64,000 bases of DNA from Ensifer sp. IC3342 (GTDB lineage Bacteria; Pseudomonadota; Alphaproteobacteria; Rhizobiales; Rhizobiaceae). Position numbers and translations under genes: made by a program. The stretch spans positions 744,001-808,000 of the forward strand of contig NZ_JADYVE010000001.1 of NCBI RefSeq assembly GCF_020193655.1, in the 5' to 3' direction. Below are positions 20,818-37,061 of the stretch, piece by piece (positions within the stretch are counted from its first letter, which is position 1; each line of letters starts with the position of its first letter). The notes under the pieces are model-generated. The model made no database searches and was not told the DNA's origin. It saw only the letters and a program-made list of their open reading frames with translations.

Positions 20818-20852
20818 TTCGTTGTCTCCTTTCGCATAATTTGTTAATCATA

Positions 20853-20885: not shown

Positions 20886-20946
20886 TAGTATTGATGCAAG
20901 CAGGAAAGTATCGCAACTCGCTACTATCCAACGAGGGAGACGTTCG

Positions 20947-21591: not shown

Positions 21592-21593
21592 AA

Positions 21594-22799: not shown

Positions 22800-22847
22800 A
22801 CGCGACATGGAGGAAAAAAGCCGTTTTATTTCAACGGCGATTGAAAC

Positions 22848-22892
22848 ACTCTGACTCCGTTAGTCCTGGTTCGAATCCAGGTTCCCCAGCCA
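22848..22892 (+). other. Right attachment site: 3' half of tRNA-Gln(CTG)
   Basis: The sequence from ACTCTGACTCCG through the T-arm CCTGGTTCGAATCCAGG to TTCCCCAGCCA is the 3' part of a tRNA-Gln with CTG anticodon. It includes the anticodon loop CTCTGAC, the 3' anticodon stem, the T-arm, the acceptor strand, discriminator G and CCA. The bases before it do not complete a D-arm or 5' acceptor, so it is a fragment. This is the usual footprint of integration into a tRNA gene. The intact tRNA should lie at the other prophage end, left of this window. Confidence 0.85.
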
Positions 22893-22960
22893 ATCCCAGA
22901 CCAGTATTCGGCGATAATCTGCAACTCACAACGCAGCTTTTGCTATTGGGAACGCCCCCG

Positions 22961-23326
22961 CTATTCCGCCGACCGATATTGCAGCGTAAACACATTCCCG
23001 GCGATCTCGTCGGCGAGTGCCTTCGAAAACTCCAGCGGCATGCAGCCTTGCAGCGCCTCGGTCGCCGCCGCCACGAAGGCTTTACGTTGTGTTTCGTCTC
23101 CGGTGACGCGGATCGCGGTCGGTTGCGGTGGACCCATCAGCGTTCCGTTGCCCTTGAATCCGAACTTCAAGGTGACGAAGGAATCCTTGATGCCCGACGG
23201 CGGGGTCCAGCATTTGCCGAGGGCGTTGCCGACATCCTCGATGGTCTGCAGGGGCTCCGCCCACGACGGACCCGTTGCGGTGACGAGGAATAAGCCCGCC
23301 AGACCCCACAGTGCAACGACTCTCAT
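22961..23326 (-). CDS. Secreted conserved rhizobial protein (TonB-C-like fold, tentative)
   Basis: The 121-residue product has a signal peptide (MRVVALWGLAGLFLVTATGPSWA). The mature part contains 'VGNALGKCWTPPSGIKDSFVTLKFGFKGNGTLMGPPQPTAI' and 'AFVAAATEALQGCMPLEFS', with two Cys likely paired in the periplasm. The W-x-P / strand / 'ATEAL..C.P' layout resembles TonB C-terminal-like periplasmic domains. It is the first host gene after the attachment site. No function can be assigned. Confidence 0.65.
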   Translation of the reverse strand: MRVVALWGLAGLFLVTATGPSWAEPLQTIEDVGNALGKCWTPPSGIKDSFVTLKFGFKGNGTLMGPPQPTAIRVTGDETQRKAFVAAATEALQGCMPLEFSKALADEIAGNVFTLQYRSAE

Positions 23327-23434
23327 TGCGATCTCAACCCCACTTCGAACGAACCGATAATCCAGCCCGCTGAAGATTGCGTATAACAGCGCCCTGAGGC
23401 AAGCCGTCCAGCATCTTCCACAAGAGCCGAATGT

Positions 23435-24577
23435 CTACAGTAATCCGCGTTTCGCAAGATTGCGCATCAGCGCGGTCGTGCCAAACGTCCATGGCGGGCA
23501 TTCGGTCGCAAGCCGTACCGTATTGACGAGGCTGCCGAGCGCTGGACTTGAAATCGTCACGACATCGCCAAGCTTGTGGGTAAAGCCCTGCCCTGGCTCG
23601 TCGCGGTCCTCGACAGGCGCGAACAGCGTGCCCATGAACAGCATCAGCCCGTCCGGATATTGATGATGCGGGCCGATGGTCTGGGCGACGAGATCGAGCG
23701 GGTCGCGGCTGATCTCGCGCATCGTGCTCGCACCGTCGAGACGGAAGCCGTCGGATCCTTCGATCAGCAGGTCGAGATCAGCATTGCGCACGTCATCGAT
23801 CGAATAGGTCTCGTCGAAAAGCCGGATGAATGGCCCGATCGCGCAGGAGGCGTTGTTGTCCTTGGCCTTGCCGAGAAGCAGCGCGGAGCGCCCCTCGACA
23901 TCGCGCAGATTGACATCGTTGCCGAGTGTGGCGCCTTTGACGCGGCCATCGCTCGCGACAGCGAGCACGATTTCCGGCTCTGGGTTGTTCCAGCGCGAAA
24001 CGGGATGGAGCCCGACTGGCGCGCCCCAGCCGACCGACGACAGCGGTTGAGCCTTGGTGAAGACCTCCGCGTCGGGACCGATGCCGACCTCGAGATATTG
24101 CGACCAGACCCCCTCTTCGATGAGGGCCGCCTTGACGCGGGCCGATTCGGGCGAGCCCGCCTTCAGGTTCCTAAGGCTGTTGCCGATGATCGCCGTGACG
24201 CGTTCGCGAATTGCTTCGGCCCTGGCGGCGTCGCCCGCCGCGCGCTCTTCGATGACGCGCTCGATCATCGAACGAGCGAAGGTCACCCCGCAGGCCTTGA
24301 TCGCCTGGAGATCGCAGGGCGCGAGTAGATGCAGTTGTCCCGCCTCGCCCGCTTCCAACCGTCCCATGACGGCGGCGAGTGGCGCAAGCGTTTCACCAGA
24401 AGCGGAGCGGGCATGGGCTACGGGATCATCGAGATCGAGAAGATCGCGCATCGTCGGCACCGCCTTCGACGTGATATCGACGAGTTGCCCTTCCCTGAGG
24501 GTCACAAGGCTTGGTCCCTCAACGTCCGGACGCCAAACCCGCCCGACGAAGGTTCCCGATTGATATGCAGCAGTCAT
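23435..24577 (-). CDS. Fumarylacetoacetate hydrolase-family protein
   Basis: The 380-residue cytosolic protein belongs to the FAH/2-oxohept-3-ene-dioate hydratase superfamily, which acts on beta-diketo acids with a divalent metal. Visible parts: KACGVTFARSMIE, the metal-site pattern around 'PEIVLAVASDGRVKGATLGNDVNLRDVEG', and 'VGWGAPVGLHPVSRWNNPEPE'. The C-terminus has 'LGDVVTISSPALGSLVNTV'. The start is ATG at 24577 with GGGAGGAGC just upstream; an upstream extension of the frame lacks such a site. The substrate cannot be named; aromatic or sugar-acid catabolism is typical. Confidence 0.75.
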   Translation of the reverse strand: MTAAYQSGTFVGRVWRPDVEGPSLVTLREGQLVDITSKAVPTMRDLLDLDDPVAHARSASGETLAPLAAVMGRLEAGEAGQLHLLAPCDLQAIKACGVTFARSMIERVIEERAAGDAARAEAIRERVTAIIGNSLRNLKAGSPESARVKAALIEEGVWSQYLEVGIGPDAEVFTKAQPLSSVGWGAPVGLHPVSRWNNPEPEIVLAVASDGRVKGATLGNDVNLRDVEGRSALLLGKAKDNNASCAIGPFIRLFDETYSIDDVRNADLDLLIEGSDGFRLDGASTMREISRDPLDLVAQTIGPHHQYPDGLMLFMGTLFAPVEDRDEPGQGFTHKLGDVVTISSPALGSLVNTVRLATECPPWTFGTTALMRNLAKRGLL

Positions 24578-24694
24578 TTGCTCCTCCCGATGCATGCAGC
24601 GTTTTCGCGGCATTCAAGCGAGCTTTTTTGCAGTTACAATACGTATCTGTAAAGCACCTTTGCGCGGCAAATTGTAGCTCGCGCTGCCTACAAC

Positions 24695-24719
24695 GGAACC
24701 TAGCAAGATCTGGAACGTT
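24695..24719 (+). promoter_or_regulatory. RpoE2/EcfG-type promoter, GGAAC-N16-CGTT
   Basis: GGAAC at 24695-24699 and CGTT at 24716-24719 are separated by 16 bases, an exact match to the general-stress ECF sigma promoter of rhizobia. It reads towards the proline-rich membrane protein gene with a leader of roughly 150 bases (less if translation starts at 24820). It lies inside the 302-base gap 24578-24879, which otherwise shows nothing clear. Confidence 0.75.
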
Positions 24720-24879
24720 TAATATTTCACCGTGGCTCTCATCGGCCGCGGCGAGGTCGCGACTATACTTGCGATAGAACGGAGTCCCTCCTTAAGTCAT
24801 TGCTGATTTAGGGAGCCCTATGACGGCATTTGCTTTGCTTCGCCGGCAAGGGATGATGTCCAGAAAGGATGTGAATGCG

Positions 24880-25245
24880 ATGAATCAGCATGAAGAACTG
24901 AAGGACAAGCCGCTCATCGATCCCGTGACGGGCCAACCGACGACCCGGGACCCGGGGATGCGCGGCAATTTGTCGGGCCGCAGCCGTTGGCCCCTGCTGA
25001 TCATTCTGCTCGCGGGACTGGTTCTGGCGCTGATCGCCTGGCTGCCCGCAGAATTGACCAGGGACACGGAAGAGGCGACACCGCCACCGGCAACCTCGGA
25101 CCAGTCGACGACAACGCCGCCATCGACCGATCAGCCGGCCACACCTCCGGCCGGACAAGCGACGCCCGGCGCGCCGGAGACCCCGGCTACGCCACCGGCA
25201 AGCCCGGCACCACAACCGCAGACCACGCCGGCACCAGCGCAATAA
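24880..25245 (+). CDS. Single-pass membrane protein with Pro/Thr-rich tail
   Basis: From ATG at 24880 the product has 121 residues: MNQHEELKDKPLIDPVTGQP, a short basic stretch (RGNLSGRSRW), one transmembrane helix (PLLIILLAGLVLALIAWLP) and an extended periplasmic tail made almost only of Thr, Pro, Ala and Gln. An earlier ATG at 24820 with AGGGAG upstream is also possible and would add 20 residues. The upstream RpoE2-type promoter suggests stress control. The tail may span or contact the cell wall; this is inference, and no family function is known. Confidence 0.6.
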   Translation: MNQHEELKDKPLIDPVTGQPTTRDPGMRGNLSGRSRWPLLIILLAGLVLALIAWLPAELTRDTEEATPPPATSDQSTTTPPSTDQPATPPAGQATPGAPETPATPPASPAPQPQTTPAPAQ

Positions 25246-25248
25246 GCC

Positions 25249-25353
25249 CTACAGCGCCGCGCGTCCTATCGGACTGCAAAGGACGCTGTAGCACTTGAAT
25301 TGCTGCATGTTTCTATCCTTAAATCAGTTACGATTTAAGGAAACATGCAGCAG
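25249..25353. repeat. Palindromic intergenic repeat, long copy
   Basis: This copy starts CTACAGCGCCGCGCGTCC, closes the first palindrome with GGACGCTGTAG and continues with a second stem formed by CTGCATGTTT and GAAACATGCAG. Shorter relatives occur at ten other places in the window. It resembles the rhizobial intergenic mosaic/palindromic repeat families. Confidence 0.7.
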
Positions 25354-25420
25354 CCAAGGGCTATCACAGACGGGGAGAACCAGTCCTCCCCGTTTTGGTT
25401 ATCGAAGCGAAGATATTGAT

Positions 25421-25480
25421 TACAGCGCCGCGCGTCCTAACAAACGCCAGAGAAAACGCTGTAGCACGTTAAATTGCTGC
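25421..25480. repeat. Palindromic intergenic repeat
   Basis: A partial copy of the same element: TACAGCGCCGCGCGTCCTAA at the left and AAACGCTGTAGCACGTTAAA at the right. It lies directly before the mgtC-like gene, and the second stem is missing. Confidence 0.65.
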
Positions 25481-25487
25481 GCTGCTC

Positions 25488-26042
<555 letters not shown>

Positions 26043-26102
26043 CGCATCGGCCCGAAAATTGGACCCGATTTTCGGAAAGCACGATGCGTGGATTCAAACA
26101 GT

Positions 26103-26143
26103 TTACAGCGACCTTTGTGCGTCCTAAAGGACGCTCGGCGCTA
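26103..26143. repeat. Palindromic intergenic repeat, degenerate copy
   Basis: TTACAGCGACCTTTGTGCGT is followed by a CCTAAAGG turn and ACGCTCGGCGCT, a shortened and diverged copy of the family. A separate CGCATCGGCCCGAAAATTGG / ATTTTCGG palindrome lies just to the left (26042-26090). Confidence 0.55.
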
Positions 26144-26274
26144 TAATGCATATTTCGTGAAAGCGTAGTCGATGCGCGTCTGATAGGCGCGGCGCCGTAG
26201 ATCATCTCATTGCCTATTGATAGTGGAGTGATGCAACTCTGTGAAAGGCCTTGCACGCCTTTTCTGGTATTGCG

Positions 26275-26544
26275 CTACCGGCCGGGAAACGCAGACGGAA
26301 CTTCCGGATCGGAATGACCGTGAATGGGTGCTGAGCCAGCGCGCGGATTCCTCCGGGTGGCCGGCCCTCTCTGTCGATGTGCCTGCAGCATGGCGACCGC
26401 CCGGCGGGCATCTTCGGGCGTTCGGAATACCTGGCCGTCCAGCGGCCACACACTGTATTTGACAGCGACAAAGCGCAATTGTCCGTTGTCAGGTATCAGT
26501 GCGCCGACCGCCTCGCCGGCGAATTCTACCGTCTGCTTACTCAT
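26275..26544 (-). CDS. Small conserved hypothetical protein
   Basis: The 89-residue product starts MSKQTVEFAGEAVGALIPDN and has a compact N-terminal beta domain (GQLRFVAVKYSVWPLDGQVF), then a helix (TPEDARRAVAMLQAHRQ) and a basic disordered tail. GGGGAGGGAG precedes ATG at 26544, which decides this start over a longer upstream frame. No family is recognised. It stands alone between the mgtC-like gene and the FAD dehydrogenase. Confidence 0.55.
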   Translation of the reverse strand: MSKQTVEFAGEAVGALIPDNGQLRFVAVKYSVWPLDGQVFRTPEDARRAVAMLQAHRQRGPATRRNPRAGSAPIHGHSDPEVPSAFPGR

Positions 26545-26893
26545 AGGCGTGAAACTCCCTCCCCGCGGCTCGCGGAGCGACGGGCTATTTTCGCCGGACA
26601 GGCGCCAGCGAACCGAACCCTCGCCTTCAGCCACCGGCGAAACACCTGAGCGGCCGTTTGGTTCCACGCGGGGACGACAAAAACGGCAGCACGATGCCGC
26701 CATCGGCAAGGAAAATCATCGTCCAGATCGCGGCCAGGAGGCGAACGAGCTAAACCGCACCCGATTGAGGGATAAAAACATGCAGCAATTCAAAGTGCTA
26801 CAGCGTCTCTTTACGCGTCTGATAAGACACGCGCCGTAGACTTGAAACCGCACAATTCCGGACGGAAAACCGGCGCGCCTTCCTGTAATTGCT
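26545..26893. other. Intergenic stretch with one palindromic repeat
   Basis: The 349 bases contain a repeat copy (26777-26839) and no gene I can support. Open frames here lack ribosome binding sites and extend from neighbouring genes in shadow frames. Confidence 0.5.
26777..26839. repeat. Palindromic intergenic repeat
   Basis: This copy is in the opposite orientation to the one at 25249: AACATGCAGCAATTCAAAGT, then GCTACAGCGTCTCTTTACGC and a closing ACACGCGCCGTAG. It lies 55 bases past the end of the FAD dehydrogenase gene and may act as part of its 3' boundary. Confidence 0.65.
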
Positions 26894-28147
26894 CTAGGCG
26901 AGGAATCGCTCGGGCCGATAGGGGGCGATGTCGATCACGGTCTTTTCGCCGGTCATGGCCTCGGCCAGCGCCCGGCCGGTAACCGGGCCGAGCGTCATGC
27001 CGTGATGCGCATGGCCGAAGGCGAACCACAGGCCCTCGTGCCGCGGTGCCTTGCCTATGATCGGCATCATATCAGGCGTGCAGGGCCGGGCCCCCATCCA
27101 TGGCTCCTCGTCGCGCCGTTCGGCCAGCGGGAAGAACTCGCGCGCAACCCTCTCGGCCCGGGTCAACTGCACCGGCGTTTTCGGCGCGTCCCGCAGTGCG
27201 AATTCCGCGCCTGTCGTCAAGCGGATCCCGCGCAGCATCGGCGCCAGGAAGTAGCCCCTTTCGGCGTCGAGCACCCAGTTGTTAAGCGTTGCCCCCTCCT
27301 GGACGCCATAGTGCATGTGGTAACCGCGCTTGACCGCGAGCGGAAAATGATAGCCGAGCTTGCGGGTCACCGTATCGGCCCAGGGACCGAGCGCCACCAC
27401 CACCTCGCGGGTCTCGAGCGGACCTTCCGGCGTCGCGACCCGCCAGCCGGCGCCCTCCAGAATGTGCTCCAATGTCGCAGCGTCGCCCGAGGCGAGCCGG
27501 CCGCCGAGCGATTGGAAATAGGTAAGATAGGCCTTGTTGAGGCTGTGCGGATCGCGGATCGACCATGGGTCGGTCCAGCGCAACCCGCCAGCGAGCTCGA
27601 CGCGGATGGATGGTTCGATGGTCCTGAGCTCGCTCGTCGAAAGCTTCTGGTGGTTGACGCCAAAACCGGCGGAGAGCTTTTCCGCGTCCTTGTAGGCGGC
27701 GTCGCGCTCCTTTTCCGTGCGAAACACCTTCATCCAACCATCCTTCCGGATAAGGTCCCCGGCACCGGAAGCCTCGATCAGGTCCTTGTGCTCCGCGATC
27801 GAGTTTTCGATCAGCGGCGCATAGAGGTGCGCGATCCTCTGGTGCTGGGTGAAGCCGGAGTGCCACCAATAGCGCGCCAGAAAAGGCACCAGCCCTGGCA
27901 GTGCACGAAAATGATAGCTGGCGTCGATGGTGTTGTTCAGCGCGTAGCGGAACAGCGCACCGAAATCATGGGGAAAGCCGTAGGGAAAGACACCTTCGCG
28001 CTGGATAAGGCCGGCATTGCCGTAAGACGTCTCCTCGCCCGGGCCGCGCCGATCGAGAAGCACCACCGATTTCCCGCGTCGCGCCAGGTGGATGGCGGCG
28101 GAAATGCCGACGATGCCGGCGCCCAGAACCACTACGTCAGTCTTCAT
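26894..28147 (-). CDS. FAD-dependent D-amino-acid dehydrogenase-like oxidoreductase
   Basis: The 417-residue protein starts MKTDVVVLGAGIVGISAAIH with the Rossmann GxGxxG for FAD. It continues 'ARRGKSVVLLDRRGPGEETSYGNAGLI', the signature of the DadA/DAO family, and ends 'GLWFAFGHAHHGMTLGPVTGRALAEAMTG', which closes the flavin pocket. DadA-type enzymes oxidise D-amino acids to 2-oxo acids and pass electrons to the respiratory chain. No alanine racemase gene lies beside it, so the substrate (D-Ala, another D-amino acid or an N-methyl amino acid) is open. It stands as a single gene. Confidence 0.75.
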   Translation of the reverse strand: MKTDVVVLGAGIVGISAAIHLARRGKSVVLLDRRGPGEETSYGNAGLIQREGVFPYGFPHDFGALFRYALNNTIDASYHFRALPGLVPFLARYWWHSGFTQHQRIAHLYAPLIENSIAEHKDLIEASGAGDLIRKDGWMKVFRTEKERDAAYKDAEKLSAGFGVNHQKLSTSELRTIEPSIRVELAGGLRWTDPWSIRDPHSLNKAYLTYFQSLGGRLASGDAATLEHILEGAGWRVATPEGPLETREVVVALGPWADTVTRKLGYHFPLAVKRGYHMHYGVQEGATLNNWVLDAERGYFLAPMLRGIRLTTGAEFALRDAPKTPVQLTRAERVAREFFPLAERRDEEPWMGARPCTPDMMPIIGKAPRHEGLWFAFGHAHHGMTLGPVTGRALAEAMTGEKTVIDIAPYRPERFLA

Positions 28148-28218
28148 AGGCCACTGCCCCGCTTACTCGCTCACATACCCGCCGCAGGCGCCAGAGGCTA
28201 GCTGCAGCAGTCGCGCCG

Positions 28219-28719
28219 TTACTTCTTCAACTTGCTCATGATCTGCTCCAGGGAACCGAGGAGCACGGCCGAGACGACAAAGGCCAGATGCATAATCGTC
28301 GCCCACATCAGCTTCTCGCTCGTGAACTGCTGGGCATTGAGAAAAATCTGCAGCAGATGGATCGACGAGATCGCCACGATGGAGGAGGCGACCTTGATCT
28401 TCAGGCTGCCGGAATCAAGCTTGCCCAGGAAAGAGACCTCGCCCTCACCCTCGTCGAAGCGGCTGACGAAATTTTCGTATCCGGAAATCATCACCATGAC
28501 GATCAGGCTTGCGACGAGTGCGGCGTCGATCAACCCGAGCATAGCAAGGATCATCTGGGCATCGTCGTAGACGAAGACTAGGCCCGCAACCTTCAGGAAC
28601 TTATAGATGAAGGAAACGCCGTAGAGAGCAAGCGCTGCAACCAGCCCGAGATAGAAGAGGACCAGTAGCCATCGGCTCGAAAGGATGATGCGCTCGACGA
28701 TGAGTTCCAGGGACTTCAT
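28219..28719 (-). CDS. UPF0114 (YqhA-like) membrane protein
   Basis: The 166-residue inner-membrane protein begins MKSLELIVERIILSSRWLLV, the typical UPF0114 start, and has three or four helices: 'LLVLFYLGLVAALALYGVSFI', 'MILAMLGLIDAALVASLIVMVMISGYENFV' and 'LMWATIMHLAFVVSAVLLGSL'. The segment FLGKLDSGSLKIKVASSIVAISSIHLLQIFL is also conserved in the family. The function is unknown. ATG at 28719 has AGGAAC some 11 bases upstream; the longer frame to 28851 has no signal. The gene lies alone, 71 bases from the FAD dehydrogenase. Confidence 0.75.
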   Translation of the reverse strand: MKSLELIVERIILSSRWLLVLFYLGLVAALALYGVSFIYKFLKVAGLVFVYDDAQMILAMLGLIDAALVASLIVMVMISGYENFVSRFDEGEGEVSFLGKLDSGSLKIKVASSIVAISSIHLLQIFLNAQQFTSEKLMWATIMHLAFVVSAVLLGSLEQIMSKLKK

Positions 28720-28811
28720 GAGTTTGTTCTGTTCCTGACCAGTGGCGGGTACCCGCATGAATAGCCAAGCGCATTGGCCAGAGCAAGGGAACTGAACACG
28801 GCTTGCAACGG

Positions 28812-28842
28812 AAAGGGGCGAAGCATCACGCTTCGCCCCTTT
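28812..28842. terminator. Bidirectional terminator hairpin
   Basis: AAAGGGGCGAAGC pairs fully with GCTTCGCCCCTTT around a five-base ATCAC loop. T-rich sequence follows on the plus side. On the minus side it stands 31 bases after the DUF1328 gene and is its likely terminator. Confidence 0.75.
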
Positions 28843-28872
28843 TTCGTTCATAGGCCCAAGGACCTGTCGTTA

Positions 28873-29037
28873 TCAGGTCTTGCGCATGAGTCCGGCAATA
28901 AGAGAAATCACCAAGAATACGAGGAACAGGAAGAACAAGACCTGCGCAATGCCTGCCGAAGCTCCAGCAATACCACCAAAGCCGAGAATGCCGGCTATGA
29001 TGGCAACGATCAGAAAGACGAGAGCATAGTAGAGCAT
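28873..29037 (-). CDS. DUF1328-family small membrane protein
   Basis: A 54-residue frame: [20 protein letters not shown] then [20 protein letters not shown] and a terminal [12 protein letters not shown]-like end. It has two transmembrane helices joined by a Gly/Ala loop, the standard DUF1328 (YtjA-like) architecture and length. CGGAGA lies seven bases before ATG. An exact RpoE2-type promoter sits about 27 bases upstream of the start, so it is likely induced in general stress. Its molecular role is unknown. A hairpin terminator follows. Confidence 0.85.
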
Positions 29038-29070
29038 AGATATCTCCGATGTCTGCGTTGGTGAAATTTT

Positions 29071-29096
29071 AACGCGCGGCTCGTCGCCTTTGTTCC
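29071..29096 (-). promoter_or_regulatory. RpoE2/EcfG-type promoter, GGAAC-N17-CGTT
   Basis: On the minus strand GGAAC (29096-29092) and CGTT (29074-29071) are 17 bases apart. The predicted transcript starts near 29064 and leaves about 27 bases of leader before the DUF1328 gene. It forms a divergent pair with the promoter at 29213. Confidence 0.8.
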
Positions 29097-29212
29097 GAGC
29101 TCCGAATTGCTCACGCCGAGACCCGAAAAATCCTTTGAGACCAAAGAAAACCTTTCGTTAACCAAGAAACGGGAAACGAGCCAGGATCGGCACGCGGGGA
29201 CAAAATTCGCCA

Positions 29213-29237
29213 GGAACCTTCGATAGGGCTTGGCGTT
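29213..29237 (+). promoter_or_regulatory. RpoE2/EcfG-type promoter, GGAAC-N16-CGTT
   Basis: GGAAC (29213-29217) and CGTT (29234-29237) are 16 bases apart. The start of transcription would be near 29244, some 24 bases before the small gene at 29268. This placement supports that gene as real. Confidence 0.75.
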
Positions 29238-29267
29238 GTTCCGGTAACGAACGCTCTTGGGAACGCG

Positions 29268-29459
29268 ATGAAGATTCCGTCTCGACATATATGGAAATCG
29301 GTAACGGAGGTCGCCCGGCACAACGCAGCCGTGCGCAGCCATAATCTGCATATTGGCAGGACGATACGCGATCTTCACATCCACACGGAAGAGAAGCGCA
29401 ATAAACGCCTCCAGGCTCTTCTCGACGCTCTGGAAAAAGCCGAACGCGATACCCACTGA
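29268..29459 (+). CDS. Small helical stress-associated protein (63 aa)
   Basis: The product MKIPSRHIWKSVTEVARHNA... ends with a charged helix (EEKRNKRLQALLDALEKAERD) and is rich in His and Arg. The ribosome binding site is weak (GGGAACG). A minus-strand frame of similar length crosses the same region but has no promoter or binding site. The RpoE2-type promoter placed 31 bases upstream favours the plus-strand reading. No family is recognised. Confidence 0.55.
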   Translation: MKIPSRHIWKSVTEVARHNAAVRSHNLHIGRTIRDLHIHTEEKRNKRLQALLDALEKAERDTH

Positions 29460-29522
29460 TGACGGGCGATGCCCGTCATCGCCGGGTGCACGTGCGTCGC
29501 TCAGACACGTTTCGCCAGCCCG

Positions 29523-29720
29523 TCAATGGCGCGATGCCCATTCGTCGATCTGGCGCTCCGCCTCTTCCTTGGCAATTCCGTAGCGCGCCTGAATGCGCCC
29601 GGCGAGTTCCTTCCTATTGCCGTTGATAATGTCGAGATCGTCGTTGGTGAGCTTTCCCCACTGCACCTGGGCCTTGCCCTTGAATTCGGTCCACCGGCCT
29701 TCGATGATGTCCCAGTTCAT
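29523..29720 (-). CDS. CsbD-family stress protein
   Basis: The 65-residue product MNWDIIEGRWTEFKGKAQVQ... with 'WGKLTNDDLDIINGNRKELAGRIQARYGIAKEEAERQIDEWASRH' is a textbook CsbD-like protein in both sequence and length. These small, hydrophilic, helical proteins are general-stress markers with no known biochemical activity. It lies 33 bases downstream of the gene at 29754-30074 on the same strand, so it is probably transcribed from the RpoE2-type promoter at 30126-30101. Confidence 0.85.
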   Translation of the reverse strand: MNWDIIEGRWTEFKGKAQVQWGKLTNDDLDIINGNRKELAGRIQARYGIAKEEAERQIDEWASRH

Positions 29721-29753
29721 GGTTACGCTCCCTTCAATCTTTGATACGGAAAG

Positions 29754-30074
29754 TCACTCATCGGCGGACAGCGTATGGATGCCGCCCGCAACCGCATAAG
29801 GCTCTTCATCGGGCGTAACGGTCACTTCAAGCTTCCCCGCGGCTGTGATCGCCCATTCGATCACCGCACTTTCGACGATGAGCGCAGGATCGACCTCGGC
29901 GCACTTGCCGTATGCCGTCTTGAAAACCTTACCGACCTCCTCCATCGCGGGAGGAAGCAAGGCTTGGCATTCCTCCACGGTTTCGAAGGCTATCACCGGC
30001 GATGGCACCTCCCGGCACGCTGTCGCATTCTGCATGCAACCGACGAGAACCATGATGGCGGCAACATGTTCCAT
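29754..30074 (-). CDS. Conserved rhizobial stress-region protein (106 aa), function unknown
   Basis: The product begins MEHVAAIMVLVGCMQNATAC, a hydrophobic N-terminus that may be a signal or lipoprotein-like segment with several Cys. It continues 'REVPSPVIAFETVEECQALLPPAMEEVGKVFKTAYGKCAEVD' and a beta-rich end. ATG at 30074 has GGAG seven bases upstream. A longer frame to 30128 would run through the promoter and is rejected. Leader length from the RpoE2-type promoter is about 20 bases. It is probably co-transcribed with csbD. Confidence 0.7.
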   Translation of the reverse strand: MEHVAAIMVLVGCMQNATACREVPSPVIAFETVEECQALLPPAMEEVGKVFKTAYGKCAEVDPALIVESAVIEWAITAAGKLEVTVTPDEEPYAVAGGIHTLSADE

Positions 30075-30100
30075 TTCCGCGCTCCTTTGACACGCAGAAC

Positions 30101-30126
30101 AACGGCGGAAGCCCATAGCGGGTTCC
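30101..30126 (-). promoter_or_regulatory. RpoE2/EcfG-type promoter, GGAAC-N17-CGTT
   Basis: On the minus strand GGAAC (30126-30122) and CGTT (30104-30101) are 17 bases apart. Transcription would start near 30094, about 20 bases before the gene at 30074, and continue into csbD. It is divergent to the promoter at 30208. Confidence 0.8.
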
Positions 30127-30207
30127 ATGGCTGGGCAATCGCCTTCCCTCGTCCGGCATCAGTCTTGAGTGCAGAGCAACCATCACGCGCGTTAGCGGTT
30201 CATCAGC

Positions 30208-30233
30208 GGAACAAAAAGGCGGCAATCTGCGTT
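30208..30233 (+). promoter_or_regulatory. RpoE2/EcfG-type promoter, GGAAC-N17-CGTT
   Basis: GGAAC (30208-30212) and CGTT (30230-30233) are 17 bases apart. It points to a 33-codon gene at 30287 and possibly further to the lipoprotein gene at 30473. Confidence 0.75.
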
Positions 30234-30286
30234 TGCGCAACAACTAACGAGCGTCGTAGCAGCAGCGATATTTTTAGGAGATACGA

Positions 30287-30388
30287 ATGAGAGGGCCGAC
30301 AGTGATTGGTGCGACCAGCCCCAAGACAGCCAAAGCGCTCGGCAATCGCCGGCATCCCGACAGGTTGGGACGAGAGCCCTTTTCATAA
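30287..30388 (+). CDS. Very small protein (33 aa) under a stress-type promoter
   Basis: ATG at 30287 has TAGGAG seven bases upstream and opens 33 codons: MRGPTVIGATSPKTAKALGN, then a basic end with RRHPDRLGREPFS. The RpoE2-type promoter would give a leader of about 45 bases. The product is small, basic and hydrophilic. No family is recognised. The promoter and strong ribosome binding site together are the only evidence; there is no conservation data. Confidence 0.5.
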   Translation: MRGPTVIGATSPKTAKALGNRRHPDRLGREPFS

Positions 30389-30472
30389 TAACAACGGTCG
30401 CTGTGTCTGGTCACATGACACGGCTTGCTTCATTCCGCAGTTCAGCAACCAAACCTCGGATAGGAACGCATC

Positions 30473-30721
30473 ATGAAGAAGATTCTTCTCGTCGCCAGCC
30501 TGATCCTTCCCCTTGCAGCCTGCACGGCAACGGAAAGGGGCGCCGGAATCGGTGCCGCATCGGGCGCGATCATCGGTGGGGCAGCCACTGGAAACGTTCG
30601 CGGAGCAGCCGTTGGCGCCGGCATCGGTGGTGTAGCCGGTGCCCTTATCGGCCGTGCGAACGAGCCCGGCTATTGCTACTATCGCGACCAATACGGCCGC
30701 CGCTACACCGCGCGTTGCTGA
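30473..30721 (+). CDS. Glycine-zipper outer-membrane lipoprotein
   Basis: The 82-residue protein has a lipoprotein signal MKKILLVASLILPLAACTAT with lipobox LAAC, so Cys17 is lipidated. Two glycine-zipper helices follow (GAGIGAASGAIIGGAATGNV and GAAVGAGIGGVAGALIGRA), then a Tyr/Arg-rich end (YCYYRDQYGRRYTARC). Small OsmB/YMGG-like proteins with this build are usual in alphaproteobacteria and often respond to osmotic or general stress. The gene lies 84 bases behind the 33-codon gene and may share its promoter. Confidence 0.8.
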   Translation: MKKILLVASLILPLAACTATERGAGIGAASGAIIGGAATGNVRGAAVGAGIGGVAGALIGRANEPGYCYYRDQYGRRYTARC

Positions 30722-30781
30722 TCGGGATAGGCCAGCGCAAAACTCGGCCGGCTACCGCATGATTCCTTAAATCGGAATCGC

Positions 30782-30839
30782 AGCAACGCAGAGGGCTACA
30801 GCGACCCTTGCGCGTCCGATTGGACGCGCGGCGGTGGCT
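30782..30839. repeat. Palindromic intergenic repeat
   Basis: Core CTACAGCGACCCTTGCGCGT, turn CCGATTGG, then ACGCGCGGCGGTG. This copy fills most of the gap between the lipoprotein gene and nepR and may also serve as a 3' boundary for both converging genes. Confidence 0.65.
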
Positions 30840-30927
30840 AATAATGCCGCCGGGTTGGCACGCACGCTCCCTGCGAGCTCGCGCCTATCTGACGTTCCCG
30901 TCCGAGGTCCCCAATCGAACGACGGCA

Positions 30928-31110
30928 TCAGCGCCGTGACTGCGCGCTCTCGGCTGCGTCAAGTCGCTCGAGCAAATCAATAAACTGCCGCGGAATCGGT
31001 TCGTTTTCCAAGGCTTGGTAAAGCGCCTTCAATTTCGATGCGATCTGTGCACTCGGATCGGTCATCGAGGCAGCGCCCGGTGCCTTGCGTCGTCCGGTAG
31101 GCCCGTTCAT
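30928..31110 (-). CDS. nepR: NepR-type anti-sigma factor (probable RsiA2)
   Basis: The 60-residue product ends with the NepR core: IASKLKALYQALENEPIPRQ then FIDLLERLDAAESAQ. NepR binds the general-stress ECF sigma factor RpoE2 (EcfG) and releases it when phosphorylated PhyR binds NepR instead. ATG at 31110 (MNGPTGRRKAPG) has GGAAGCGGAA upstream; the longer frame from 31167 is less likely. It is divergent to phyR. No sigma factor gene is adjacent, so this is probably the second pair of the genome (RsiA2/RsiB2 in S. meliloti naming, from memory). Confidence 0.8.
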   Translation of the reverse strand: MNGPTGRRKAPGAASMTDPSAQIASKLKALYQALENEPIPRQFIDLLERLDAAESAQSRR

Positions 31111-31283
31111 TTTCCGCTTCCGCGCACCGAAGGCCTTATCCCCCCATTCCGGCCATTCCTGTCCCATATGCCCGTCATTTGTTTACTCTAGGCTTTCCAT
31201 TATCCGAAAGACGTGCTCAAAACATTGACGTATCCTGCTGCACGCCCATTGTCCGCAAGACCGGGACCATACCGGCACAATAG

Positions 31284-31299
31284 TTTAGGAAAACCTAAA
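31284..31299 (+). promoter_or_regulatory. Inverted repeat over the phyR ribosome binding site
   Basis: TTTAGG and CCTAAA flank AAAA, and the last A is the first base of the phyR ATG. The AGGA of the ribosome binding site lies in the left arm and loop. A hairpin here could mask translation, though with six A/T-rich base pairs it would be weak. Confidence 0.4.
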
Positions 31300-32099
31300 T
31301 GTCACTTTCCACCAGGATTGCGCCACATCTTCCCTATCTGCGGCGTTATGCTCGCGCCGTCACGGGCTCGCAAGCCGCCGGCGACGCTTATGTTGCCGCC
31401 GTTCTCGAGGCGCTGATCGAGGACGTCAGCCTCTTCCCGACCGCCTCCAACGACCGCATCGCTCTCTACAAGCTTTTCTGCTCCCTGTTCGAAAGGCTGG
31501 ACATCGATCGCACGCAGTTGACGTCGCCCTTCGCCTGGGAGCGCAACGCCGCGGCCAATCTGTCGCTGATCGCACCTGCGCCGCGCCAGGCATTCCTTCT
31601 CATCGCCGTTGAAGGCTTTTCCACGAGCGAGGCGGCCGAGATCATGAACCTAGACCCCGGCGGCGCCTTCGCCACGCTTCTCGCCGAGGCTTCGCAGGAG
31701 ATCTCGCGTCAGGTGGCGACGGAGGTCATGATTATCGAAGATGAGCCGCTGATCGCCATCGATATCGAGGACATGGTGACAAGCCTCGGACATCGCGTTA
31801 CCGGAATCGCTCGAACCTATCGCGAGGCGCTCGAACTCTATCGGACGACATCGCCGAAAATGGTTCTTGCCGATATCCAGCTCGCCGACGGCAGTTCGGG
31901 TATAGACGCCGTCAACGATATCCTGGCTGAAACCACCGTACCGGTTATCTTCATTACGGCCTTCCCCGAGCGGCTCCTGACAGGCAAGAAGCCGGAGCCG
32001 GCTTTCCTGGTAACGAAGCCCTTCAATCCGGAAATGGTGAAGGCGCTGATCAGCCAGGCCCTGTTCTTCGACGAACAGGCGCGCACCGGGCGCCCCTAA
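31299..32099 (+). CDS. phyR: PhyR general-stress response regulator (probable RsiB2)
   Basis: The 266-residue protein joins an N-terminal ECF sigma-like domain (about 1-130: 'RYARAVTGSQAAGDAYVAAVLEALI' and 'APRQAFLLIAVEGFSTSEAAEIMNLDPG') to a C-terminal receiver. The receiver shows MIIEDEPLIAIDIEDMV (acidic pocket), VLADIQLADG with the phospho-Asp, VIFITAFPE with the Thr and LVTKPFNPE with the Lys. Once phosphorylated by HWE/HisKA2 kinases, the sigma-like domain sequesters NepR and frees RpoE2. It is divergent to nepR. No histidine kinase of that class is in the window. Confidence 0.88.
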   Translation: MSLSTRIAPHLPYLRRYARAVTGSQAAGDAYVAAVLEALIEDVSLFPTASNDRIALYKLFCSLFERLDIDRTQLTSPFAWERNAAANLSLIAPAPRQAFLLIAVEGFSTSEAAEIMNLDPGGAFATLLAEASQEISRQVATEVMIIEDEPLIAIDIEDMVTSLGHRVTGIARTYREALELYRTTSPKMVLADIQLADGSSGIDAVNDILAETTVPVIFITAFPERLLTGKKPEPAFLVTKPFNPEMVKALISQALFFDEQARTGRP

Positions 32100-32120
32100 A
32101 CTCGCGGCCCGTACCCAATG

Positions 32121-33254
32121 TCAGTCCGGTAACTGCCGGTCCACAGGCGGCTCGCGCACCTCCTCGAAAATGGTCATGGCGATAAGTGACAGGGGTAGCG
32201 CCAGAATCGCCCCGACGGCACCCCACATCCAGGTCCAGAAAATGATCGCGATGAAGATCAGAAATGGGTTGATCGCGAAGCGGTGCCCCAGGACGGCCGG
32301 AACGACGAGATTTTCCATGAGCAGATGCACGACGAAGAAGGCGACCGCGGGCGCAATCCCCAGAAGCAGCGCGTCATGCATCATCAATCCGCCGACGAGC
32401 AGCGACAGCGTCATGATGGTCACGCCCAGGTAGGGAATGAAGCTCGACACGAAGGCAAACAGCCCCCACAACGGTGCCATGGTCAGTCCTCCGACAAGTG
32501 CGATCACCATCGTCGTCAAGCCGAGCGCCAGATAGATGAGGCTCGCCGTCGAAAAATACTGGGCGAGTGCATCCTCTGTGGCGTTCATGATCCGAATCGC
32601 GTTCAAGCGATGCTCCCTGCTGGCAAAGGCAAGGATTATTGTGCTGCGCAGCTGAAGGCGGCCGAGAAGGAAAAGGACAAGGGCGGCCAGAAAAATCAGT
32701 GTCTGGACCAGTGCCGGTGTCAAGCCTGCTGCAACAGCTCCAAGCATGGGGCCGGCGTTCTTCACGAGGGCATCGGCAAGTGAGTTCGGGTCGGCGTTGC
32801 GTATCAGTGCCATCCTCAACCAGGTGAACCGCTCGATGAAGGGCAATATCCGCTCCATGACGCCCTCGGTCAGCCGGGGCGCCTGGCGCGCCACTTCGGT
32901 AATCGGACCAAGAAGTGCATTCACCAGCGATGACAGCCCGAGCACGAAAAGAAGCGCCAGCAAAAGGCCGCCGAAAATCGGCGGCAGGCCGAATCTCTCC
33001 AATTCGTCGGCCGCCCTGCCAAGCACGATGCCAACGATAATCGCCAGCGTAATCGGCATCAGGATCGATTCCATGGAGTAGACGGTCGCCGAGCAGGCGA
33101 TGACAAAGAGGCCGACCGTGCTTAGCGCGACCAACAGCTCAAGGCCGTTGCGCTCTCGGACGGCGCCTGCCGGCGAATCGGCCAAGGCGATTTCATTGTC
33201 CACGCTGCTGCGCTTTCGTTTGCGGTCGCTCGTGATGTGCCTCGCTGTTTCCAT
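32121..33254 (-). CDS. AI-2E-family (PerM-like) membrane transporter
   Basis: The 377-residue inner-membrane protein has about eight helices in the family layout: 'LELLVALSTVGLFVIACSATVYSMESILMPITLAIIVGIVLG', a 'LPPIFGGLLLALLFVLGLSSLV' block, the soluble middle domain, and 'GLTMAPLWGLFAFVSSFIPYLGVTIM' with the conserved PYLG. The C-terminus ends in 'MWGAVGAILALPLSLIAMTIFEE'. Relatives export or leak small molecules (autoinducer-2, indole, ions); the substrate is unknown. ATG at 33254 has AAGGA upstream. It is probably driven by the stress promoter at 33601-33577 through the small gene in front. Confidence 0.8.
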   Translation of the reverse strand: METARHITSDRKRKRSSVDNEIALADSPAGAVRERNGLELLVALSTVGLFVIACSATVYSMESILMPITLAIIVGIVLGRAADELERFGLPPIFGGLLLALLFVLGLSSLVNALLGPITEVARQAPRLTEGVMERILPFIERFTWLRMALIRNADPNSLADALVKNAGPMLGAVAAGLTPALVQTLIFLAALVLFLLGRLQLRSTIILAFASREHRLNAIRIMNATEDALAQYFSTASLIYLALGLTTMVIALVGGLTMAPLWGLFAFVSSFIPYLGVTIMTLSLLVGGLMMHDALLLGIAPAVAFFVVHLLMENLVVPAVLGHRFAINPFLIFIAIIFWTWMWGAVGAILALPLSLIAMTIFEEVREPPVDRQLPD

Positions 33255-33373
33255 CGGCGTCCTTCTTCTTCTGGACCGGTTCGCAGCGTCGGCCATGCCG
33301 TCGATCAAACCGCAGATCCGGAACAATGCGCCCCTGCCCGCACCCCGCATCCGCCTTTCACTCAGAGCGTCCC

Positions 33374-33544
33374 TCAGTGTTGTCCGGGTGGGAATATGTG
33401 GAGCGTCAGGGAGAGCAGGCCCAACCCCAGAACGATCATCAGCAGTGTGCGCGCCACTTCATCCGTTGTCTGCGGGATGAGGCCGAAACCGATCACGATC
33501 CCCGCGAGCACCAGCACGAAAAAGCGTGGCAGCCAGTAGAGCAT
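33374..33544 (-). CDS. Small membrane protein (56 aa) under a stress-type promoter
   Basis: The frame starts with ATG at 33544 (MLYWLPRFFVLVLAGIVIGF) and has two hydrophobic helices separated by QTTDEVAR, then a polar end FPPGQH. It resembles DUF1328-like small proteins in size and layout without matching them closely. AAGGA lies nine bases before ATG. An exact RpoE2-type promoter stands about 26 bases upstream. The AI-2E-family gene follows after 119 bases. Confidence 0.65.
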   Translation of the reverse strand: MLYWLPRFFVLVLAGIVIGFGLIPQTTDEVARTLLMIVLGLGLLSLTLHIFPPGQH

Positions 33545-33576
33545 TGGTCATTCCTTCCATTACGGAACGACCGATA

Positions 33577-33601
33577 AACGTCCGAACGAGTGCTTGGTTC
33601 C
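33577..33601 (-). promoter_or_regulatory. RpoE2/EcfG-type promoter, GGAAC-N16-CGTT
   Basis: On the minus strand GGAAC (33601-33597) and CGTT (33580-33577) are 16 bases apart. Transcription would begin near 33570 and cover the 56-residue membrane protein and perhaps the AI-2E-family gene. This is in the 315-base gap 33545-33859, which also holds a repeat copy and the ridA terminator. Confidence 0.8.
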
Positions 33602-33641
33602 TACTGCATGTTTTGCCAGATCGCAGTCGCTACCAAGAATA

Positions 33642-33697
33642 AAAACATGCAGAAATTCAAAGTGCTACGGCGTCCTTTTGTGCGTCTGATCACAGCA
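33642..33697. repeat. Palindromic intergenic repeat
   Basis: AAACATGCAGAAATTCAAAG then TGCTACGGCGTCCTTTTGTG and a shortened end CTGATCACAGCA. It matches the first half of the copy at 26777. Confidence 0.6.
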
Positions 33698-33804
33698 CCC
33701 GACAGCAGTGTACTCTTGCCTCGTCGATTGCGGTACGGCAGGGGCTCCTCCTTCATTCTCATTCCCGTGCTGCCACAGAGATGAGGGCGAGCCCGAAACA
33801 AAAA

Positions 33805-33831
33805 CGCCGCCGTGCACAGGGCACGACGGCG
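33805..33831 (-). terminator. ridA-family gene terminator
   Basis: CGCCGCCGTGC and GCACGACGGCG form an 11-position stem with one mismatch around five bases; on the minus strand it is followed by a T-rich run (TTTTTGTTT). It lies 29 bases after the RidA-family gene. Confidence 0.75.
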
Positions 33832-33859
33832 CGCTTCGATCTATCAAAAAAAGAAGGAC

Positions 33860-34204
33860 TTACGCGGCAGCGGTGACAATGACTTCGACGAGGTATTCCG
33901 GCGTTGCGAGCTTGGCTTCGCCAGTCGCACGGGCGGGCGTGTGGCCCTGCGGCACCCAGGCGTCCCAGACGGAATTCATCTTGGCGAAATCGGCCATGTC
34001 CGCGAGCCAGATCGTTGCCGACAGGATGCGCGTCTTGTCCGTGCCTGCGAGAGCGAGAAGACGATCGACTTCGGCGAGCGCCTGCTTCGTCTGGGTGACG
34101 ACGTCGTCACCGGCATTGCCGACCTGGCCGGCCAGATAAACCGTGTTGTTGTAGACCACGGCCTGGCTCATCCGCGGGCCGGTTTCAAAGCGCTTGATTT
34201 CCAT
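33860..34204 (-). CDS. RidA-family (YjgF/Rid) protein
   Basis: The 114-residue protein MEIKRFETGPRMSQAVVYNN... with 'TVYLAGQVGNAGDDVVTQTKQALAEVDRLLALAGTDKTRILSATIWLADMADFAKMN' is a Rid-family trimer. These remove reactive enamine/imine intermediates from amino-acid catabolism. The end 'GHTPARATGEAKLATPEYLVEVIVTAAA' has the family's Arg and Glu at the active site. ATG at 34204 has AGGAT about eight bases upstream. It is a single gene next to the dpp operon; a link to peptide-derived amino acids is possible but only inference. Confidence 0.8.
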   Translation of the reverse strand: MEIKRFETGPRMSQAVVYNNTVYLAGQVGNAGDDVVTQTKQALAEVDRLLALAGTDKTRILSATIWLADMADFAKMNSVWDAWVPQGHTPARATGEAKLATPEYLVEVIVTAAA

Positions 34205-34382
34205 TGTCATCATCCTGAAGTTTGGGCCGGACGTTTTCCGTCCGACTGATAGCGCCCGCCGCCGGAAGGCGAGTGGAGATGGCGGCGGAGAAGCTCTACA
34301 CCAAAGGGAAATCGGGGCCAAGGAGCGGCCGCCCGTCCCGGCAGGCCGCAAACCTCGGGCCGAAAGCCGATTGGACGTGCCC

Positions 34383-34446
34383 TGCTGCATGTTCCCTTAC
34401 AGCGCCGCGCGCCTTCGCGCGTTTGATGAGACGCGCGGCGCTGTAG
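34383..34446. repeat. Palindromic intergenic repeat, near-perfect palindrome
   Basis: TTACAGCGCCGCGCGCCTTC at one side and GAGACGCGCGGCGCTGTAGA at the other make a long stem. It lies right after the end of the dpp operon. Confidence 0.65.
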
Positions 34447-34465
34447 AGTGACAGGGCAGGATATC

Positions 34466-35290
34466 TTAAGCGGCTTTCCGTGCGAGGCGCGCCTTGATGC
34501 TGGCAACGTCTGCGCGCGGCGTGGCGGCAAACAGGGTCTTGGTATAGCTGTGCTTGGGATCCGCAAAGACCTCGTCACGGCTGCCATATTCCACTGCCTC
34601 GCCGTAATACATCACCATAACGTCGTCGGCGATGTAGCGTACCACCGAGAGATCATGACTGATGAAGACATAGGTCAGGTGGAACTCGTCCTGCAGATCC
34701 GCGAGCAGGTTAAGGACCTGCGCCTGAACCGATAGATCGAGCGCGGAGACAGGCTCATCCAACACGAGGAGGCTGGGATTGAGCATCAAGGCGCGCGCAA
34801 TGGCGATGCGTTGACGCTGGCCGCCCGAGAACATGTGCGGATAGCGATTGTAGTGTTTCTCGTCGAGACCCACCTTCTTCAGTATCGTCATGGCGCGGTC
34901 GCGCCGTTCGTCGGCCGGTGCCTTGGTGTTGATGACCAGCGGCTCCGCCAGGATATCGCCGATCTTCTGCCGCGGGTTGAGCGAACCATAAGGATTCTGG
35001 AACACGATCTGCACCTTGCGGCGCATTTCCGATGTCAGGCCGTCCCTGGCGATGTCAACCTTCTTTCCATCGATCAGCAACTCGCCCGAGGTCGCGGGGT
35101 CGATCAGCGTGATGATGCGACCAAGCGTCGACTTGCCGCAGCCGCTTTCGCCAACGATCGCCAGCGTCTTTCCCTCGTCAACGGTGAAGCTTACGCCCTT
35201 CAGTGCATGAACCGTACGCGCCTTGCGGAACAGGTTGCCGGGAATGTGATAGTCGCGCACCAGGTCGCGGGCTTCGAGAACATGGGTCAT
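34466..35290 (-). CDS. dppF: Dipeptide/oligopeptide ABC transporter ATPase DppF
   Basis: The 274-residue ATPase has Walker A GESGCGKSTL, signature MFSGGQRQRIAIARAL, Walker B LLVLDEPVSALD and the H-loop YVFISHDLSVVRYI. It starts 'LVRDYHIPGNLFRKARTVHALKGVSFTV', usual for the F subunit. It overlaps dppD by ATGA (35287-35290). With DppD it powers uptake of peptides bound by DppA through DppBC. It is the last gene of the operon. Confidence 0.88.
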   Translation of the reverse strand: MTHVLEARDLVRDYHIPGNLFRKARTVHALKGVSFTVDEGKTLAIVGESGCGKSTLGRIITLIDPATSGELLIDGKKVDIARDGLTSEMRRKVQIVFQNPYGSLNPRQKIGDILAEPLVINTKAPADERRDRAMTILKKVGLDEKHYNRYPHMFSGGQRQRIAIARALMLNPSLLVLDEPVSALDLSVQAQVLNLLADLQDEFHLTYVFISHDLSVVRYIADDVMVMYYGEAVEYGSRDEVFADPKHSYTKTLFAATPRADVASIKARLARKAA

Positions 35291-36141
35291 CGAGTGGCTC
35301 CCTCCAGCATCTGCTGGTCGTTGAAGAGTTCGGAGATCGTCGGCAGGCGGTCGCCCGTCGCGTTCTCCGGCAGGGCAGCAAGGAGCGCGCGCGTGTAGTT
35401 GCTCTTCGGCGATTCGAACAGCGACAGCACATCCGCCTCCTCGATCTTGCGGCCCTTGTATTGAACGATGACGCGATCCGCCGTTTCCGCGACCACGCCC
35501 ATATTATGGGTAATCATGATGAGGCCCATGCGGTATTCCTGCTGCAGTCTCATCAGAAGATCGAGGATCTGCTTCTGGATCGTCACGTCCAGCGCGGTGG
35601 TCGGCTCATCCGCGATGAGGAGCTTCGGATTGCAGGCAAGGGCAATCGCAATCATGACGCGCTGGCACTGCCCACCCGACATCTGATGCGGGAAATGGCC
35701 AAGACGCTCGGCCGGATCGGGAATGCCGACGGCTTCGAAGAGTTCGATCGCGCGCTTGCGTCGCGCCTTACGGTCAAGCCCCATATGAATGCGCAGCACT
35801 TCCTCGATCTGGAAGCCGACCGTGAAGCACGGGTTGAGGCTGGCGATCGGCTCCTGGAAGATCATGGCGATGTCCTTGCCGACAATCTTGCGACGGTCGG
35901 CCGCGGACATCTTCAGAAGGTCCCGCCCATTGAAGGCAAGCTTGTCCGCCGTCACCTTCGCAGTCCAAGGCAGAAGCCCCATCGCGGCAAGCATCGACAC
36001 GGATTTGCCTGAGCCCGATTCCCCGACGATTGCCAGGACCTCGCCCTCGTGCACCTTGAGCGAAACGCCGTCGACGGCCCGGAACGGCCCGGTGGACGTC
36101 TGGAATTCAACGACGAGATTTTCAATTTCGAGAAGCGCCAT
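35287..36141 (-). CDS. dppD: Dipeptide/oligopeptide ABC transporter ATPase DppD
   Basis: The 284-residue ATPase shows Walker [11 protein letters not shown], the D-subunit block '[26 protein letters not shown]', signature [18 protein letters not shown], Walker [13 protein letters not shown] and H-loop [15 protein letters not shown]-terminal oligopeptide-specific segment ([32 protein letters not shown]) follows. Walker A has Ser-Val instead of Ser-Thr after Lys, which is common in DppD. It lies one base behind dppC. Confidence 0.88.
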
Positions 36142-36142
36142 G

Positions 36143-37051: not shown

Positions 37052-37061
37052 ATCGCCCTCC

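Follow-up and report, generated by a model that had tools for sequence, protein, structure and literature searches.

A probable general-stress-response island around the PhyR/NepR pair of Ensifer sp. IC3342, with a NepR-like gene behind one of six predicted EcfG-type promoters

How alphaproteobacteria turn the general stress response down is described as little known (PMC4814048). The published account of Sphingomonas melonis NepR2 presents a NepR-like protein under EcfG control, which binds PhyR and acts as a negative feedback regulator, lowering the response (PMC6599016), while in Methylobacterium extorquens the NepR homologue META2p0735, which has an EcfG-type promoter, was put forward as a competitor for PhyR (PMC4814048). 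In Sinorhizobium meliloti, the names RsiB2 and RsiA2 are given to SMc00794 and SMc04884, respectively (PMC3616915). Here we analysed 64,000 nucleotides (nt) of the Ensifer sp. IC3342 genome (positions 744,001 to 808,000 of contig NZ_JADYVE010000001.1; hereafter the window), in which six GGAAC-N16/17-CGTT motifs lie within 9 kb together with phyR and nepR, one of them in front of a gene for a 63-amino-acid (aa) NepR-like protein. Promoter type, regulon and PhyR/NepR pair have all been described before; the RpoE2 regulon was reportedly treated by Sauviac in 2007. Among the matches listed in our literature searches (titles and abstract beginnings), we met nothing on effector genes clustered around phyR, on the island as a unit or on the 63-aa gene, although the supplementary gene lists of PMC3616915, outside that scope, may well include some of the targets.

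Taken as a whole, the evidence makes it likely that this locus is a general-stress-response effector island that includes a NepR-like brake. All six sites listed by a first-pass annotation of the DNA letters are present at the 5′ ends and on the strands it gave, each intergenic and facing a gene start, and four of them form two divergent pairs, as it had claimed. The intergenic calls come from a simple gene caller, to which gene 24880–25245 was added by hand because the caller missed it. The proposal that these sites are RpoE2/EcfG promoters is very probably right, judging by their position, spacing and conservation and by the like divergent motifs at the rsiB1 / rsiA1-rpoE2 locus of the same genome: as in EcfG/RpoE2 (ECF15) promoters, the boxes stand 16–17 nt apart upstream of start codons, and they are conserved at orthologous genes. 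The whole window holds eight exact matches, the extra two, 21226–21250(-) and 53872–53896(-), both overlapping predicted genes.

For conservation, we compared the 80 best of 441 confirmed loci of PhyR relatives; the closest named among them (Ensifer sp. IC4062, MPMI2T and S. terangae) are 96–97% identical. Window genes were placed in these loci by translated search (E ≤0.05) and motifs were sought only afterwards; the strict motif was counted 20–400 nt upstream, with the loci that have a match of the gene as denominator. The predicted promoters, with these counts, and the genes of the island are as follows.

24695–24719, plus strand: P1, predicted EcfG/RpoE2-type promoter, spacer 16, before the gene for the Pro-rich membrane protein (site in 40 of 40 loci with a target-gene match)
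29071–29096, minus strand: P2, predicted EcfG-type promoter, spacer 17, for DUF1328 (70 of 73 loci)
29213–29237, plus strand: P3, predicted EcfG-type promoter, spacer 16, for the 63-aa NepR-like gene (42 of 42 loci)
30101–30126, minus strand: P4, predicted EcfG-type promoter, spacer 17, for s105 and probably csbD too (50 of 51 loci, counted at s105)
30208–30233, plus strand: P5, predicted EcfG-type promoter, spacer 17 (42 of 48 loci, counted at the glycine-zipper gene)
33577–33601, minus strand: P6, predicted EcfG-type promoter, spacer 16 (58 of 59 matches of the 56-aa query)
24880–25245, plus strand: protein of 121 aa that has a membrane-spanning stretch and ends in a Pro/Thr-rich tail; no match to a Pfam family at E 0.1
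28873–29037, minus strand: DUF1328 membrane protein, 54 aa, SMc00796 type (PF07043, 58.2 bits)
29268–29459, plus strand: divergent NepR-like protein, 63 aa, by profile homology; putative stress-induced PhyR antagonist
29523–29720, minus strand: CsbD-like protein, 65 aa (PF05532, 62.6 bits)
29754–30074, minus strand: s105, a 106-aa protein with four invariant cysteines
30287–30388, plus strand: leader open reading frame (ORF), 33 aa, about 54 nt after P5 (33 aa in three of four near relatives examined, 59 aa in the fourth)
30473–30721, plus strand: glycine-zipper lipoprotein, 82 aa (PF13488, 37.4 bits)
30928–31167, minus strand: nepR (assigned to the rsiA2 type), without an EcfG-type promoter (PF18557, 47.6 bits against a cut-off of 25.7)
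31299–32099, plus strand: phyR (assigned to the rsiB2 type), without an EcfG-type promoter (PF22029, PF22233 and PF00072; receiver D192, K240)
32121–33254, minus strand: AI-2E family transporter (PF01594)
33374–33544, minus strand: membrane protein, 56 aa, weakly DUF1328-like (NCBIfam PRK13682 model, E 6.5e-5, below cut-off)

The strict motif also stands upstream of CsbD in 28 of 44 loci (8 of 23 among loci without a sigma factor gene) and of the AI-2E transporter in 35 of 53, where many of the motifs belong to the preceding 56-aa gene. Within the P6 count, 18 of the 58 sites, all in EcfG-bearing loci, have motif distances identical to those of DUF1328 and probably represent DUF1328 itself; the rest amount to 40 of 41. 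Spacing from motif to orthologous start is near constant across the 80 loci. In the window, the distance from motif end to start codon is 27–34 nt for four targets and 161 nt for the 24880 gene; for the glycine-zipper gene it is 240 nt, or about 54 nt if the ORF at 30287 is the first target of P5, a site that is absent from the near relatives L002 and L006. At finer scale, 28 Sinorhizobium/Ensifer sequences of the DUF1328/63-aa intergenic region, the window included, are invariant in 15 of 18 motif columns versus 14 of 212 others. Because the compared species are related, the conservation counts are not independent.

The first-pass annotation rightly counted very small proteins among the targets and missed that one of them is NepR-like. 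Profile comparison identifies the 63-aa gene at 29268 as a divergent homologue of NepR. It was found in 42 of the 47 loci lacking a sigma factor gene and in none of the 33 bearing one. Its family alignment (18 of 35 members) shows N-L-H-I-G-x-T without variation and, after it, L, LL, L and E that are likewise invariant, a pattern that matches the core of NepR (26 of 99 NepR matches aligned), and hhalign of the two profiles gives 95.9%, E 5.4e-9 and a score of 48.1. Divergence is highest at third codon positions, the pattern of a real gene (0.259 versus 0.061 and 0.021 across the window and six near relatives).

In the regulator pair, PhyR has sigma-like domains and a receiver with its phosphoacceptor aspartate (D192 and K240 in 82 of 82 aligned sequences), and NepR at 30928–31167 lies above the PF18557 cut-off and below that of the NCBIfam NepR model (19 of 100 bits). 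Neighbourhood and the second PhyR of this genome suggest that the pair corresponds to RsiB2-type PhyR and RsiA2-type NepR of S. meliloti. This second PhyR (C38:140931-141713, 70% identical) sits beside nepR-ecfG on contig C38, which is where the genome's rpoE2 is located rather than in the island; two divergent motifs lie between the genes there and a third beyond the far end of the second PhyR. With the window genes as queries, 80 kb around the C38 locus returned (E ≤0.05) none but nepR, phyR and OppF-like ABC-transporter matches.

No EcfG-type promoter motif was found at the window's phyR or nepR. EcfG is encoded within the fetched stretch in 33 of the 80 loci and is absent from it in 47, RsiB2-type Sinorhizobium loci included. 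A motif precedes phyR in 31 of the 33 EcfG-bearing loci (28 strict, three relaxed) but in 2 of the 47 others (strict motif; L049, a short contig, and L053), and at nepR the strict motif occurs in 0 of those 47, with a relaxed match in one. The window thus departs from the canonical phyR-nepR-ecfG locus, having neither ecfG beside the pair nor an EcfG promoter before phyR. The earlier picture of an island around PhyR and NepR holds for location, the pair sitting inside the 9 kb, and fails for the pair's own control: on present evidence these regulators appear to live in the island but outside its regulon. The missing motif at nepR agrees with the report that S. meliloti rsiA2 is not rpoE2-dependent (PMC3616915); its product is listed as translated in a ribosome-profiling study (PMC10117765). 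In a simple scan of 30721–31299, the stretch from the glycine-zipper gene to phyR showed no terminator-like site on the plus strand, and P5 transcripts could therefore run antisense through nepR into phyR. For S. meliloti, an rpoE2-dependent signal 5′ of SMc00794, uncorrelated with the coding region, has been reported (PMC3616915).

From sequence, conservation, homology and the absence of the motif at phyR2 and nepR2, we infer a model that covers RpoE2 dependence, operon structure, product functions, threshold role and feedback. RpoE2 (EcfG), encoded elsewhere in the genome, would transcribe from all six promoters. Their products would be small envelope or protective proteins (DUF1328, the DUF1328-like protein, CsbD, the glycine-zipper lipoprotein, the Pro-rich membrane protein and s105), perhaps with the transporter. 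Since phyR2/nepR2 lack such promoters, the pair would set the threshold of the response instead of being amplified by it. Stress would free RpoE2, which would then make effectors and the NepR-like brake alike; the 63-aa protein, probably a PhyR antagonist induced by stress if Sphingomonas NepR2 is a guide, would most probably bind PhyR (or RpoE2) once the response is on and turn it down, occupying PhyR so that NepR could recapture RpoE2. A wider reading, which we advance tentatively and rate a little short of even, is that Sinorhizobium and the Rhizobium groups related to it have a third NepR-type protein, induced by RpoE2, which competes for PhyR and switches the response off. It would travel only with the sigma-less, non-autoregulated PhyR2/NepR2 pair, so that the response would be split between an activator locus that is amplified (rsiB1 / rsiA1-rpoE2) and an island, of constant threshold, that holds the effectors and the brake.

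Clustering of regulator and targets, which the first-pass annotation had thought unusual, turned out to be common. Motif density near PhyR is 0.348/kb in 42 loci and 0.301/kb in the other 38, versus 0.014–0.046 for five control patterns. Such clustering is shown by PhyR loci of the Rhizobiaceae, Phyllobacteriaceae, Devosiaceae and Stappiaceae, as well as by 16 loci outside the order, taken as the strongest PhyR-domain matches from the 39 other genomes, among 115, that had a match. Those 16 loci (294 kb) hold 34 motifs versus 6, 3 and 3 for three controls, with DUF1328 in five, CsbD in three and DUF3309 in three; one of them, L179, has no PhyR protein match. Automatic assignment tied 486 of 520 motifs to ORFs in 82 sources (the 80 loci, the window and C38), and the families most often behind a motif were, by number of sources, DUF1328 (59), s105 (50), the Pro-rich protein (36), the 63-aa family (35), the AI-2E transporter (35), PhyR/EcfG (33), glycine-zipper (31), a DUF883-like family (30; its Pfam match is just below cut-off), CsbD (27), a PRC-barrel protein (20) and DUF3309 (13). 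Gene order varies between lineages, as seen in the eight loci viewed.

The genome has a second motif-rich stretch, C60:250506-269747 (L162, L163), where eight strict EcfG motifs in 19 kb surround an EcfG-like gene (C60:256949+) that has a NepR-like ORF on the opposite strand (C60:257431-); it resembles the rpoE5 region as portrayed in PMC6180224. At C27:736300-736368 (L123), a partial NepR match (profile end only, E 0.008), possibly a decayed nepR, lies near strict motifs at 735164 and 736391.

Several observations weigh against the account of an effector island with a brake. Genome-wide (7.42 Mb), the bare motif is not enriched, with 151 matches versus 164 for the pattern read backwards, and context and conservation must therefore carry the argument; the local excess, which the first-pass annotation had proposed to seek by a genome scan, was found. 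The automatic assignment is rough: in the window it overshot by one gene for P2 and P6, tying them to the ORFs that follow DUF1328 and the 56-aa gene. The EcfG label needs only 3–4 changes on the PhyR tree, so that the promoter contrast represents a few evolutionary events and not dozens, and deletion of rpoE2 in E. aridi was reported to leave the phenotype unchanged (PMC8877191). As for the NepR-like protein, the window sequence has no Pfam or NCBIfam match, PF18557 included, scores weakly against the NepR profile (E 0.0054, 18-sequence set) and is not listed in a NepR-profile search of the genome at E ≤1; among 18 members, PF18557 matches five (best E 0.045) and Spore_III_AB, surely unrelated, matches three with a better value (best E 0.0021). 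AlphaFold returns one low-confidence helix (pTM 0.32). The window also has I33/H37 at the positions, in our own alignment, of S. melonis L32/Y36, replacement of either of which is reported to weaken NepR (PMC6599016), and its affinity for PhyR may therefore differ; some other members keep L or M and Y, and in others H, Q or E stands in place of Tyr. The genome-wide counts would suit a chance cluster of motifs without function, an explanation that deserves next to no credence and that we reject: six matches stand where 0.17 were expected in 8.9 kb, only 2 of 20,000 random placements of the 151 genome matches put six in such a stretch, and 100 dinucleotide shuffles of the window gave a mean of 1.17 and a maximum of 6, with eight reached in none. 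Over 1.2 Mb of the window's contig the motif has 29 matches, 15 of them intergenic, and 12 of these lie ≤300 nt upstream of a same-strand start, six being the island's own; six control patterns gave 12–48 matches there, 1–6 intergenic and none in the island. Conservation of box columns and spacing and the site counts over 80 loci speak the same way.

The weak single-sequence scores, together with the better Pfam value of an unrelated family in other members, could instead mean that the resemblance to NepR is not homology and that the 63-aa protein is an unrelated helical effector, which we find quite improbable given that the I, L, L, Y, F, LL, L, D and E positions match (without gaps in the Rhizobium member L042), that the best of 200 column shuffles (18.6), the reversed profile (11.1) and 12 other island families (6.5–16.8) score far below the real comparison, and that the profile falls elsewhere only on NepR: in the Protein Data Bank (PDB; E ≤10) it matches only NepR chains 5uxx_B (E 0.1) and 4qic_B (E 0.15), and in 199 genomes of the order it finds itself and ten places, all ten on PF18557 NepR genes. 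Granted homology, the protein could be a true anti-sigma factor for RpoE2 or another EcfG paralogue here, the island still being a stress regulon. S. meliloti RsiA1 and RsiA2 are reported to bind RpoE2 and PhyR proteins alike (PMC4814048), and the genome has a further EcfG-like gene on C60, yet for the EcfG-linked NepR paralogues studied elsewhere the reports describe PhyR binding and show no EcfG binding (PMC6599016, PMC4814048); we regard this role as unlikely. Evenly balanced, in our judgement, is the idea that phyR2/nepR2 stand among RpoE2 targets by descent from a locus that once held ecfG, their co-location having no present role. It concerns the cause of clustering and is compatible with an effector island plus brake. 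The lack of the motif upstream of phyR2 and nepR2 fits it, as does the joint presence of ecfG, nepR, phyR and several of the same effector families in EcfG-bearing loci. However, some families recur near PhyR, even outside the order, despite differing gene order, a hint of selection for proximity.

Of the remaining genes, the DUF1328 protein is given as SMc00796 in a table row of PMC6637203, and the 121-aa protein is possibly the SMc00800 equivalent, a guess from gene order. A 33-nt gap suggests that csbD is probably co-transcribed with the gene upstream; in Sphingopyxis, csbD expression is reported as 0.01 in an ecfG2 mutant and 0.00 in a double mutant (PMC7083833). The AI-2E transporter is possibly read from P6 through the 56-aa gene. 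For s105, all 26 members aligned, out of 50, keep cysteines 13, 20, 36 and 58; neither Pfam nor NCBIfam gave a family, and a predicted model (mean pLDDT 74) gave 113 PDB matches at E ≤10, the best at 1.1 and none at 0.001. The ORF at 30287 is a weak candidate for a conserved 33-aa leader protein, its length differing in one of four near relatives; in Rhizobium giardinii (L029) its slot after P5 holds DUF3309. Seven RNA-family matches in 20000–38000 all fell below gathering scores and were taken for repeats or chance. The island's intergenic DNA contains two repeat families, 26772–26823 with 33639–33690 (88% alike) and 26104–26140 with 30797–30833 (84%), which we take to be possibly rhizobial intergenic repeats such as RIME. 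A tyrosine-type integrase gene, recognized by eye from its translation, lies nearby at 21594–22799, and a scan of the window for tRNA genes found only one, tRNA-His at 48705.

For deletion and assay, the conserved NepR-like gene with its stress-type promoter offers a single target in the genus to which the model S. meliloti belongs. Through the island, DUF1328, s105, DUF3309 and the glycine-zipper lipoprotein are also linked, in many species, to one likely regulator, so that functions for these families can be sought under RpoE2-inducing stress.

Among described systems, the S. meliloti RpoE2 regulon (RsiA1/RsiB1, RsiA2/RsiB2) shares promoter type, a PhyR/NepR paralogue pair and genus with this locus, and in the S. 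meliloti 4H41 locus (L016) most of the neighbouring genes recur, with five of the motifs and with the orthologue of the 63-aa gene at L016:8758-8949; what we did not meet in the parts of that literature consulted is an account of the whole island or of the third NepR-like gene. M. extorquens META2p0735 is likewise a NepR homologue with an EcfG-type promoter, differing in that the accounts consulted mention no effector island. The canonical phyR-nepR-ecfG locus has divergent PhyR and NepR and nearby effector genes with EcfG motifs, as here, whereas the island has no ecfG and no EcfG motif at phyR or nepR. S. melonis Fr1 NepR2 offers the counterpart of a NepR-like protein made from an EcfG-controlled gene and acting in negative feedback; its gene, as numbered in the published account (#1448), is next to ecfG (#1447), whereas the gene for the 63-aa protein, a putative PhyR binder, has for neighbours a PhyR/NepR pair without an adjoining EcfG.

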